Shown here in pieces: positions 1,650 to 13,394 of a stretch of 64,000 bases of DNA (within the stretch, counting starts at the first letter, position 1; each line of letters opens with the position of its first letter). Source of the stretch: Halorubrum salipaludis. Its GTDB lineage: Archaea > Halobacteriota > Halobacteria > Halobacteriales > Haloferacaceae. A model generated the notes under the pieces. It searched no databases. It was not told the origin of the DNA and saw only the letters and a list, made by a program, of their open reading frames with translations. Position numbers and translations under genes: made by a program. The stretch lies in assembly GCF_002286985.1 (NCBI RefSeq), contig NZ_NSKC01000011.1, positions 1-64,000 on the forward strand, in the 5' to 3' direction.

Positions 1650-2935
1650 AGATTCGCCGGTTAGGCAAAAAATCGGGCACCCACGGGACAGTCGATCTAA
1701 TGGATATGGACATGATCCCTGAACCGGTCGTACCGACAAAATCCGAGCTTCCCGGTCGATTACTCCACGAAGGGCAATCCGGCGACGCGGCGATACTCGT
1801 CGCTCTCGTAGACGGTGACCATCGGTTTAGTGATACTGAAGGACCCTTCTTGATCGTTTCTCCGCGCACGCCCTACAATCGCGTGATGCTCCCGAGGATG
1901 ACTCTCTCAGCAACACTCAACCGAGGAGGGGACACAGTCGCCCAAGGGCCACTCCAAGCGTCCCTTGATCCCGATCTCGGGAGTTTCTATGGGATGAGCC
2001 TTGATGAACTCAACTCGGGCGATACGGTCAGAATCGCCGTAGAGACGCCACCCCAACTAGCGCGGCACGATGGCTACGAAACCGCGGTTCGCCAGCGCGT
2101 ACGTCGCGAGGACGCAGGCGAGAGTGAACCCGAACGCGGTAAAGTAGATGAACGGGCTGATCAACACCGCGCTCGCGGGGAAGGGAATCAGCGGCTCCGT
2201 GCCGGCACGGACCGCGGCGACGCCCGAGTCCTCGACGGTGCGGAGCGCGCCGCCTCCAACAAGACGATCGTCATCGACCAGAATCATAACAACAGCGTCA
2301 CGCCTGAGGCAATCAGTCCCTTGGTTACGCGCCTACTTGAAGCCGGCCACGATGTGGAGTTCTATACCGACGAGATAGCCGAGCACCAGAGCTTCAACGA
2401 GATGCTCGCAAGCGCCGATGCATTTGTCGTCATCGGACCCGGTGAGCAGTACAACGCCAGTGAGCAGACCCGGATAGCCCGCTTCTCCGACAACGGCGGC
2501 CGGATCCTGCTCGTCAACGAACCTACCCAACGGGGAGCTAACGGGCCGGCACGCTCGACGCCAATGACGAACATTGCCAGCGAGTTCGGACTCGGATACG
2601 ATGCGGGCTGCCTCTACAATCTAGCGTGGTACAACACAAACTACCGCGCCGTCTATGCCAAGCCGGCCAATGATTCGTCGATCACCAAGGGGGTCGATCG
2701 GGTCACGATGTACACTGCCCGCCCGGTCGTGGGCGGATCGGCCACGCTTGTGACGAACGAGACGGCAGCGCTCTCAACAACTCGGCGGCAGGCACAGTAT
2801 ACTGTCGTCGCTCGCGAAGGGAACGTCATCGCCCTCGGGGACCGCTCCCTGCTCGGTTCCGATTACATCTACACCAACGATAACGAGGTCCTCGTGAGTA
2901 ACATCGTCAAGTTCCTCGTCTCCGGATCGCGGTAG
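1650..2935 (+). pseudogene. Chimeric ORF built from three unrelated gene fragments
   Basis: The frame is open from the cassette boundary at 1650; the first ATG is at 1700. Bases 1650 to about 2090 encode the C-terminal part of a periplasmic P19/iron-transport-like domain (TVDLMDMDMIPEP, then SPRTPYNRVMLPR). From about 2057 to 2255 the plus-strand reading is low-complexity Arg/Glu/Asp. The minus strand there encodes a membrane segment ([20 protein letters not shown]) ending in its own TAG at 2057-2059, so this piece is inverted. From about 2255 a DUF4350-like domain without its signal peptide begins ([10 protein letters not shown], then FVVIGPG). The join happens to keep one frame open. I infer rearrangement debris rather than a functional fusion. 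Confidence 0.65.
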
Positions 2936-3179
2936 CAGAGCGGAGTCTCAGAAACTTTTTACAGGATATCAACTAGCGGCGATAGAACATTTTCACACTG
3001 GGTTCGATCTTTCTTCGAGGAGAGAATCCGCCGAGTTTGACGATCAGTAACCTCGATATGCGCTGTGTTGAGAGGTTCGACAACTACTGTTTACGACGGA
3101 GAAGATGTCACAATTGACCAAATTTCTAGCAATTGGTGAAACAGCTGATAGCGAGGATAGAGACTATATGTGCGTTCAC
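2936..3179. other. Intergenic, no gene seen
   Basis: This AT-richer spacer lies between the chimeric ORF and the convergent rhomboid gene. I see no tRNA, no IS6-type end and no convincing small ORF. Confidence 0.5.
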
Positions 3180-4103
3180 TCAGAAGCGGCACCGATCTGA
3201 GCCGCCTGAACCACGGCCGACATGAATTGATTCAGGGACGTCATATCTTTTCTTAACAACCGCTCCATATGCGAGACCGATACCCAGCCCCGTGAGGTGG
3301 GCCCAATTCGCTACACTTCCAGGACCGATAGCGGAGAGACCAGCGACAGCTGAGAAGATGGCGAATCCGATGGTTAGTATCCAGAGAGGTACCGGGAGGA
3401 GAAAGTACAGATACACTGTGAGCTTGGGTCGGAGAACAGTGAGTACTCCCATCACAGCTATGATGGCGCCCGACGAACCGACAACTCCCGACTGCATTCC
3501 TGGATTCAAAAGTAGTGTCGCCCCAACCTGTGCGAGGCCAGCGAACACGCCCGCAACGAGAAATAACGCTACAAAGCGTGCCTTTCCGAGGCGACGCTCA
3601 ACAACCGGCCCGAAGAAGTACAGCGCAATGCTGTTGACAGAGATGTGAGTGAAGCCACCATGGGCGAAAATGGATGTTATCCACGTCCAGACATACATGG
3701 GCTGCTGTGGCGAAAGGACAAACACCGACCGCCACAGTGAGGATCCGGGAGAAATGTCAATAAAAAGAGGAAAAATGACAAACTGTATTATGAACGTTGC
3801 CCACATAAGCCCGAGGAAGAGATAAGTTGTATTTCGGCGGAGAATCCCGATCACCCCACTGGTGGGCGTTTGCCGGTCAACAATCGATTTCGCTCGCTCA
3901 ATAGTACTTTCCTCAGAGCGATCACGATTCTCAACAGAGGTGTCAACTCCAGAATTGAAAACCCCTTTCGACTCGTTCCAGTCATTCAGACCGGGGCAAT
4001 TATGATTCTCTGGGAGGCGATGATCGGCACAGAATGTGTCCCCACACCGGCGACAGTGGTACGGCATACTTTCATACGCACCGCATTGGTCGCACTCAGC
4101 CAT
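3180..4103 (-). CDS. AN1 zinc-finger rhomboid intramembrane serine protease
   Basis: A 307-residue membrane protease. Residues 4-36 hold an AN1-type zinc finger (C4, C7, C17, C20, C25, a His pair and C36). After an acidic linker there are about six membrane segments. The rhomboid catalytic serine lies in GSSGA near residue 209 and the partner histidine in WAHLTG near 270. The FTHISVNSIALYFFGP loop is also typical. The AN1-rhomboid fusion is a known haloarchaeal arrangement. Length and motifs are complete, so the protein is probably active in cleaving membrane-bound substrates within the bilayer. It stands alone between debris and the ACR3 cassette, whose left target copy begins 17 bases upstream of its start codon. 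Confidence 0.92.
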   Translation of the reverse strand: MAECDQCGAYESMPYHCRRCGDTFCADHRLPENHNCPGLNDWNESKGVFNSGVDTSVENRDRSEESTIERAKSIVDRQTPTSGVIGILRRNTTYLFLGLMWATFIIQFVIFPLFIDISPGSSLWRSVFVLSPQQPMYVWTWITSIFAHGGFTHISVNSIALYFFGPVVERRLGKARFVALFLVAGVFAGLAQVGATLLLNPGMQSGVVGSSGAIIAVMGVLTVLRPKLTVYLYFLLPVPLWILTIGFAIFSAVAGLSAIGPGSVANWAHLTGLGIGLAYGAVVKKRYDVPESIHVGRGSGGSDRCRF

Positions 4104-4119
4104 CGTTACGAATAATCCA

Positions 4120-4127
4120 GTTCATGT
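4120..4127 (+). repeat. Left copy of 8-bp target duplication (GTTCATGT)
   Basis: GTTCATGT directly precedes the inverted end at 4128 and is repeated exactly after the other end at 5376-5383. Eight base pairs is the target-duplication size of IS6-family transposition. Confidence 0.9.
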
Positions 4128-5375
4128 GGCTCTGTTGAAATCCTTAGGAACTGGTAGGACCGGCGTGCGAGATACAGAGGGTGTATCTATCAACGACTCT
4201 TGATTCGCGTCAGCTCCCCCGTTACAGCCCGACGAAGCGATAGTGTAACTGGTAGCGAAGGGTGTTAGGCTCGTCCCCACGAACCCTTGTCCGAATGGAC
4301 GCTAAGGAGTGGCTCCGTCGGCACCAAGTCCTCGTGTACGCAGTTGCCGTCGCGCTGGCGGTGGTCATCGGAGCGGGCCGTCCGATGTGGGCCACGCCCA
4401 TCGAGGGACTCATCAACCCCGTGCTGGCCGTCCTGCTGTACGTCACGTTCCTCGAAATCCCGTTTGTGCGGCTCCGCCGGGCGTTCACGAACGGGCGGTT
4501 CATCGGAGTGGCCCTCGGGCTGAACTTCCTCGTTGTACCGGTCGTGGTGTGGGGACTCACCCGAGTCCTCCCGTCCGACCGAGTCGTCCTCGTCGGTGTC
4601 CTGATGGTACTACTGACGCCGTGCATCGACTACGTCATCACTTTCACCGACCTCGCGGACGGCGACGCCGAACAGCTCACCGCGACGACACCGGCGCTGA
4701 TGCTGGTGCAACTGCTCCTGCTCCCGTTGTACCTGTGGCTGTTCGTCGGCCCGGAGATCGCGGCGGTCATCGAGGCCGGCCCGTTCATCGAGGCGTTCGT
4801 GCTGATCATCGCGCTGCCGCTGGGGCTGGCGTGGCTCACCGAAGCCGGCGCGGAGCGCTCCGGGCGGGTCGCGGGGTGGCAGGAGACGCTGGGGTGGTTT
4901 CCCGTGCCGATGATGGGCGTAACACTGTTCGTCGTCATCGCCTCGCAACTCCCGCGTGTACAGGACGCCTTCGATCAAATTGTAGTGGTCGTGCCGGTCT
5001 ACGTCGCGTTTCTCTTCGTCATGCCGTTGCTCGGACGATTGGTGAGCGGCCTGTTCGGGATGGACGTTGGCGAGCGGCGGGCACTGGTGTTCACGTCCGT
5101 GACACGGAACTCTCTGGTCGTCTTGCCGCTGGGGCTTGCGCTGCCAGCGGGTTACGAGTTGGTGCCGGCTATCATCGTGACGCAGACGCTGGTCGAGTTG
5201 AGTGGGATGGTGGTACTCACGCGAGTCGTGCCGGCGGTACTAGTTCCGGCTCCGCCGGCTGACGACAGCCAGCCCACTGTACCGAGTGGTGAGTGATTCC
5301 CGGCGGTGGCCGATTCGCGCTCTATATTCAGCACATCTGCAAAACATATCACCTGCTGAGGATTTCAACAGAGCC
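4128..5375. mobile_element. Transposase-less cassette 2: IS6-type ends carrying an ACR3 permease
   Basis: GGCTCTGTTGAAATCCT at 4128-4144 is matched by its exact inverse at 5359-5375, a perfect 17-bp inverted repeat. The unit is 1248 bp long and is flanked by a perfect 8-bp direct repeat. It contains no transposase, only the ACR3-type permease gene. The 30 bases at 5346-5375 match 12215-12244 (an end of cassette 3) with one mismatch, so the elements share a common end. The intact duplication means this unit moved as a single piece, presumably by an IS6 transposase acting in trans (inference). Confidence 0.88.
4295..5296 (+). CDS. ACR3-type arsenite efflux permease (SBF-like superfamily)
   Basis: About ten membrane segments over 333 residues. 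The ACR3 signatures are present: LLTPCIDYVITFT, containing the conserved Cys of the transport site, and SVTRNSLVVLPLGLALP near the C-terminus. Members of the family export arsenite or antimonite as the oxyanion. ATG at 4295 is preferred over the upstream start at 4262 because MDAKEW is a normal cytoplasmic N-terminus and the preceding residues look random. The gene is the only passenger of cassette 2. No arsR or arsC lies nearby, so it would depend on a promoter between 4145 and 4294 or on read-through. A different SBF-family substrate cannot be excluded. Confidence 0.85.
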   Translation: MDAKEWLRRHQVLVYAVAVALAVVIGAGRPMWATPIEGLINPVLAVLLYVTFLEIPFVRLRRAFTNGRFIGVALGLNFLVVPVVVWGLTRVLPSDRVVLVGVLMVLLTPCIDYVITFTDLADGDAEQLTATTPALMLVQLLLLPLYLWLFVGPEIAAVIEAGPFIEAFVLIIALPLGLAWLTEAGAERSGRVAGWQETLGWFPVPMMGVTLFVVIASQLPRVQDAFDQIVVVVPVYVAFLFVMPLLGRLVSGLFGMDVGERRALVFTSVTRNSLVVLPLGLALPAGYELVPAIIVTQTLVELSGMVVLTRVVPAVLVPAPPADDSQPTVPSGE

Positions 5376-5383
5376 GTTCATGT
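5376..5383 (+). repeat. Right copy of 8-bp target duplication (GTTCATGT)
   Basis: Exact copy of 4120-4127, immediately outside the right inverted end of cassette 2. Confidence 0.9.
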
Positions 5384-11883: not shown

Positions 11884-12244
11884 GGCTCTGTTGAAATCCT
11901 ATTCTTCAGATAGGTTCTCGTGTGAAACAGCCGGTCAGTAGATCTGCCTACTCCGCAATCAAGAATTATACAGTTCTATTCCCGGTTACTCAGTCCGGCA
12001 CCAATTGCAGCACCAAGTGCCACTCCGATAGCGAGCCAGAGTCCGATATTATCCGTAGCAGAACCGATAGCGACCCCAATCGCAAGTCCAATCGCCATCC
12101 CTATTCCCGTGTCTTTCCCGCTCGGTCCTGTCTCGCTTTCCCCGCTCATGTACTATCAGGGGACGTTAGGAGACGGTAAGTCCACCGTCTGGATTGATCG
12201 CAGCTGGGTCAAATATATCACTTGCTGAGGATTTCAACAGAGCC
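11884..12244. mobile_element. Transposase-less cassette 3 with IS6-type ends
   Basis: GGCTCTGTTGAAATCCT at 11884-11900 is repeated in inverse at 12228-12244, a perfect 17-bp inverted repeat bounding 361 bp. Inside the 11884 end the next bases (TATTCTTCAG and GTGAAACAGCCGGTC) are homologous to the right ends of cassettes 1 and 4. Inside the 12244 end the sequence matches the left ends of cassettes 1 and 4 and, over 30 bp, one end of cassette 2. The flanking 8-mers (AATTATTA and CAAAGTCC) do not match, so no duplication remains. The only gene is the small ORF at 11976-12149. Confidence 0.75.
11976..12149 (-). CDS. 57-residue glycine-zipper protein
   Basis: ATG at 12149, TAG at 11976-11978. After a polar Ser/Gly-rich start come two hydrophobic segments with Gly/Ala every three to four residues (GIGMAIGLAIGVAIGSA and LAIGVALGAAIGAGLS), the glycine-zipper pattern. 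Such peptides insert in membranes or oligomerise; many haloarchaea have small genes of this type with unknown function. It is the sole passenger of cassette 3 and reads from the cassette left end to the right end. A toxin-like, pore or membrane-structural role are all possible. Confidence 0.7.
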   Translation of the reverse strand: MSGESETGPSGKDTGIGMAIGLAIGVAIGSATDNIGLWLAIGVALGAAIGAGLSNRE

Positions 12245-13378: not shown

Positions 13379-13394
13379 GAATTTCAACAGAGCT
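13379..13394. repeat. Solo IS6-type inverted end
   Basis: GAATTTCAACAGAGCT is the inverse of an IS6-type terminus (AGCTCTGTTGAAATTC). It borders the decayed ATPase on its right. I found no partner end between 12245 and this point, so it is a solitary remnant. Confidence 0.55.

Follow-up and report, generated by a model that had tools for sequence, protein, structure and literature searches.

The segment at 4120–5383 of the window, the whole stretch of 64,000 nucleotides from Halorubrum salipaludis that was analysed here, is an IS5-type mobile insertion cassette (MIC) whose probable mover is an ISHla2-like transposase acting in trans. We give this reading a probability of roughly 80%. The unit itself spans 4128–5375 (1248 bp) and encodes a permease only, with no transposase. 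Its features are as follows.

4120–4127, no strand: left copy of the 8-bp target duplication, GTTCATGT (from the sequence)
4128–4192, plus strand: left end of type A1, the 17-bp tip plus the subterminal motif GTGCGAGATACAGAGGGTG (from the A1 consensus of group-A units)
4298–5296, plus strand: passenger gene, an ACR3-like permease of the SBF superfamily, 332 aa (PF01758, 2.6e-15)
5306–5375, minus strand: right end of type A2, the 17-bp tip plus the subterminal motif GTGCTGAATATAGAGCGCG (from the A2 consensus)
5376–5383, no strand: right copy of the 8-bp target duplication, GTTCATGT (from the sequence)

The tips, GGCTCTGTTGAAATCCT, are located at 4128–4144 on the plus strand and 5359–5375 on the minus strand and form an inverted repeat that is identical at 17 of 17 positions; the identity is 83% when the repeat is stretched to 29 nt. 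The duplication that borders the tips is exact over all 8 bp, and the permease is the single plausible gene between them. On re-check, the coordinates, the perfect repeat, the duplication, and the permease-only interior of the original prediction all proved to be exact. The GC content of the unit is 63%, compared with 55–56% in the flanks, which fits an outside origin. The arrangement is that of a MIC, because IS-type terminal inverted repeats surround a gene with no role in transposition and a transposase is absent. A MIC also carries a duplication of the length made by its cognate IS, and this length is 8 bp both in the window unit and in units with an ISHla2-like transposase.

With up to three mismatches allowed, the 17-mer tip has 8 occurrences in the window; the expectation from shuffled sequences is 0.14. 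A 15-mer version with up to two mismatches is present at 43 sites in the whole genome, against one site for the reversed control pattern. Elsewhere in the window, 633 bp at 1017–1649 lie between two imperfect tips and contain an ORF for a lipoprotein-like protein of 125 aa (1158–1535), with no matching 8-bp duplication; the stretch probably represents an older member of the wider family, with a type-B right end. A 361-bp unit at 11884–12244 has perfect tips and a minus-strand ORF for a glycine-rich protein of 57 aa (11976–12149), again with no target duplication. The tips at 13394 and 53836, both on the minus strand, are apparently solitary, and the latter is a complete type-B end sequence that adjoins a possible lipoprotein gene.

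The original prediction described the passenger as an ACR3-type arsenite permease, and this holds in part. The protein matches the SBF profile PF01758 with E = 2.6e-15, but against the ACR3 equivalog profile TIGR00832 it scores 33.0 bits, far below the curated cut-off of 282.8 bits, so that among the ACR3 and SBF profiles only membership of the SBF superfamily is reached. ACR3 pumps require a cysteine and a glutamate of the kind represented here by Cys-109 and Glu-300, which are invariant across 25 permease homologues. Homologues are annotated as "arsenic resistance protein" or "bile acid:sodium symporter," and on the basis of the former annotation the permease may export arsenite. A sequence relationship to a solved structure was not found, nor were relatives among viral contigs. 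None of 24 other homologues, from relatives and GTDB genomes, is flanked by tips, and the only tip-flanked permease outside the window is on a plasmid of Haloferax lucentense, described below.

The tip leads to the IS5 family. It stands 52 bp upstream of the ATG of ISHla2-like transposase genes, with zero or one mismatch in most complete copies, and the outer 17 bp of the window unit match these ISHla2-like tips exactly. The transposase scores 218.7 bits against the IS5 family profile NF033579, and plasmid copies of its gene are annotated as ISHla2 and ISHxa2. At the more distant IS5 transposases examined (43–47% identity), the exact tip was not found. Transposase-bearing ISHla2-like units that were picked by their transposase alone show exact 8-bp duplications in four of six cases. 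In most of the delimited units with a transposase, additional DNA separates the transposase from the far end, and an annotated or predicted gene often lies in it; such DNA or genes lie behind the transposase in L145, L146, L107, L086, L166, L167, L169, and L170. The C-terminal end of another IS5 transposase, with the element tip GGCTGTGTTGAATCGC, occupies the first ~260 bases of contigs C4 and C11 of genome G000, and on C4 the C-terminal end of the IS5 transposase abuts a GGCTCTGTTGAAAT tip.

The window unit belongs to a larger set, group A, whose members have two distinct, non-identical ends that are each conserved over ~60 bp. The consensus sequences derived from group-A units are GGCTCTGTTGAAATCCTTAGGAACTGATAGGATCGGCGTGCGAGATACAGAGGGTG for A1 and GGCTCTGTTGAAATCCTCAGCCGGTGATATGTTCTTGGAGCCGTGCTGAATACAGAGCGCG for A2, and the two have a common subterminal core, GTGC...ATACAGAG. 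A1 is found at 31 sites in 24 of 53 genomes of the genus and A2 at 18 sites in 16 of the 53, with no reversed-control sites for either. Among plasmid records, 94 match A2 and 73 match A1, and the matches listed are haloarchaeal throughout. No A1/A2 cassettes were found in phages. Similarity to the ISHla2-like transposase was absent from the 28 group-A units examined. No group-A unit with a transposase of its own was found, a point against the preferred reading.

Tip pairs with exact 8-bp duplications are seen throughout the relatives, but most of the Halorubrum units were found via their duplications, so that these counts are not an unbiased rate. Fourteen convergent A1/A2 pairs on plasmids were selected by their ends only. 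The duplication is exact in 4 of these pairs and matches at 6 or more of 8 positions in 9, compared with 0 and 4 of 182 cross-pairings. A recognizable duplication is missing in the other 5 of the 14. One unit, L158, was scored in this test from its inner left end, and its outer pair has an exact duplication.

The passengers of the 28 group-A units are mostly unrelated to one another. They include merA with a permease (L149), a bacterial-like globin (L055), a PAS/histidine kinase (L063), alpha/beta hydrolases (L065 and L162), DoxX proteins (L154 and L161), an SDR protein with an HTH protein (L153), an MFS transporter with an FAD-binding oxidoreductase (L159), and a DUF4238 protein (L150). A uracil-DNA-glycosylase-like protein lies within a larger unit whose duplication matches at seven of eight positions (L059), and many other passengers are small lipoprotein-like proteins or proteins of unknown type. 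This diversity contradicts the proposal that the cassette is specific for a resistance gene. By eye, there is no apparent rule for the orientation of the passenger relative to A1 and A2. Nucleotide similarity between group-A interiors is confined to a few pairs, which are evidence of movement.

A related unit is on the H. lucentense plasmid pSVX82-3, where a stretch of 3424 bp (81673–85096) has GAACAGCA on each side. It encodes an HTH regulator, merA (509 bits against TIGR02053, cut-off 454), and a permease that is 95% identical in amino acid sequence to that of the window. The two units share 91% DNA identity over a stretch that starts 6 bp upstream of the permease start codon and reaches the right tip. 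They thus have the right end and passenger in common, and their left ends differ. The presence of merA beside the permease favors a role in metal or metalloid handling, although it is no proof. The main check proposed in the original prediction, for the same unit at another site with another 8-bp duplication, has in substance come out positive, with a related, larger unit that agrees in permease and right end and departs from the window unit on the left.

The second check, for an empty site, gave no match for the window insertion itself, as the joined flanks matched one side or the other only among the 53 genomes. An exact pair was obtained for a sister unit. L049 and L050, from two Halorubrum genomes, share a unit of 701 bp with no sequence difference, and the sites it occupies are unrelated. 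In L050, an additional sister unit of 659 bp has been inserted, with AGCGTAAC duplicated over exactly 8 bp, and removal of the insert and one copy of the duplication restores L049 exactly. This filled and empty pair shows past mobility of the sister unit. A further unit in Halorubrum genome G007 is 95% identical over 471 bp to a unit in Haloferax larsenii, and their duplications are ACTGAGGT and AATCGTTT, respectively. The original prediction of a transposase-less cassette that moved as a whole in one event is supported in the form of a MIC.

For the mechanism, we propose that an ISHla2-like DDE transposase, supplied in trans, would recognize both A1 and A2 ends and insert the cassette as one unit, which would produce the 8-bp target duplication. 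Action in trans on the tips is supported by a hybrid unit, L036, in which an A2-type end and an ISHla2-type transposase end enclose a passenger, with GAAGAAGC flanking the unit on both sides. Passengers could be captured when a gene comes to be flanked by two copies of the ends, the outermost pair then moves, and the inner ends decay. A likely snapshot of such a capture is L052, where a composite of 3025 bp (2183–5207) consists of an empty A1-A2 element of 108 bp on the left, a cassette on the right, and a rhomboid-like gene between them. The outermost ends of the composite are flanked by GATCACCC twice, an exact duplication, and were the inner ends lost, the whole would become a new, larger cassette. 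Replacement of one end would be expected to give the relationship seen between the window unit and that of H. lucentense, namely the same passenger and right end with different left ends.

That an ISHla2-like enzyme does the moving, rather than a related IS5 transposase, is inferred. The same kind of cassette could be mobilized by another IS5 subfamily, and we regard this as improbable. The genome contains another IS5-type element with a related but differing tip, GGCTGTGTTGAATC; the group-A subterminal motif is absent beside the ISHla2-type upstream tip; and the assembly yielded no ISHla2-like gene that is intact, the sole near-complete copy, in L036, having an internal stop codon. An active ISHla2-like enzyme may thus be absent from the assembly. 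However, it is the ISHla2-like tips, and not the other IS5 tip, that the outer 17 bp match exactly, and in L036 an A2-type and an ISHla2-type end are combined in a unit with a single duplication. In addition, ATACAGAGGGT, which resembles the A1 subterminal motif, recurs behind the stop codon of several ISHla2-like genes. A quite different origin was assigned by the original prediction, which took the termini to be of the IS6 type; the unit would then be an IS6-type element without a transposase, moved by IS6 cointegrate formation. In its favor, IS6 elements typically generate 8-bp duplications, the tips of bacterial members are similar to GGCTCTGTTG, and those of many archaeal members begin with GG (PMC6807381); even so, we consider this origin highly unlikely. 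Within 150 bp of IS6-type (NF033587) transposase genes in this genus, none of 31 loci has the tip within 3 of 15 mismatches, the best having 4 of 15, and this rules out IS6 transposases as the origin of the ends. Two IS6 copies of this genome have termini of the GTGTTCAGAT or TTAAGTTAA type, and where units have both the tip and a transposase, the transposase is of the IS5 type. At the start of the contig (window 1–555), an IS6-family transposase is represented by its C-terminal part, which has an internal stop, and the tip GGCTCTGTTGAAATCCT is absent around it. In Halomicrobium urmianum, an A2 end overlaps a "transposase" that matches TnpB weakly; this was rejected as a partner and is probably an insertion target.

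Least probable of all, to the point of being nearly negligible, is that the unit never moved as such and is either a decayed IS or a resident permease that came to have a solitary end on each side by coincidence. The missing empty site would agree with this, as would the several tips of the window that are solitary or have no duplication. Against it, an exact 8-bp duplication is present at both outer edges of the window unit, transposase remnants are absent from group-A units, the unit differs from its flanks in GC content, and the same permease and right tip recur in Haloferax with a different duplication.

Neither MICs nor ISs that carry passengers are new as concepts (PMC3129680, PMC2266710, PMC6542083). 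The MIC231-type cassettes of Bacillus cereus belong to IS231 of the IS4 family (definition in PMC3129680 and PMC6542083), and they resemble the window unit in having IS ends around a passenger, no transposase, movement that depends on an enzyme in trans (which we infer here), and a target duplication. The window family differs in that it is of the IS5 type and archaeal, has two dissimilar conserved ends of ~60 bp, carries a broad range of passengers, and extends over many haloarchaeal genera. Transporter ISs (tIS) are insertion sequences with passenger genes (PMC3129680; IS231 subgroup, PMC2266710). The ISHla2-like units with a passenger between the transposase and the far end are similar to these, whereas the window unit, which has no transposase itself, is not a tIS. 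For haloarchaea, the open-access literature describes MITEs; those of Haloquadratum walsbyi are likewise non-autonomous, with transposon-like tips and target duplications, but they are shorter than ~520 bp and almost all non-coding (PMC3119063), whereas the window unit has 1248 bp and a complete foreign gene. The translocatable units and pseudo-compound transposons of IS26/IS6 share the 8-bp duplications and carriage of resistance genes (PMC7986276), but they hold full IS6 copies, and their tips and transposase family are different. A single passenger-carrying member, a bacterial one, is named in the IS6 review (PMC7986276). No description of IS5-type cassettes in archaea was found in the open-access literature, and a search for the tip as a text string returned unrelated papers only. 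The cassette concept is therefore already known, and the interesting part is the breadth of the family.

Such transposase-less cassettes escape ordinary annotation, in which their genes pass for those of any plasmid or chromosome. The two end signatures of ~60 bp allow them to be listed, and units that have one end and the passenger in common but differ in the other end make passenger capture directly testable. Dozens of plasmids from haloarchaea and many genomes of Halorubrum contain A1/A2 cassettes, which carry whole genes or small gene sets, in one instance a mercury reductase with the same permease as in the window. We tentatively suggest, as a view that has somewhat less than even odds, that there is a gene-cassette economy in the haloarchaea, in which a single pair of IS5-type ends, A1 and A2, with no dedicated transposase, would move near-arbitrary genes or small sets between genera, including mercury and probable arsenite resistance, by borrowing an ISHla2-like transposase, and would gain and lose genes by replacement of one end at a time. 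If the family works as proposed, it would be an important route for the exchange of single genes among haloarchaea.
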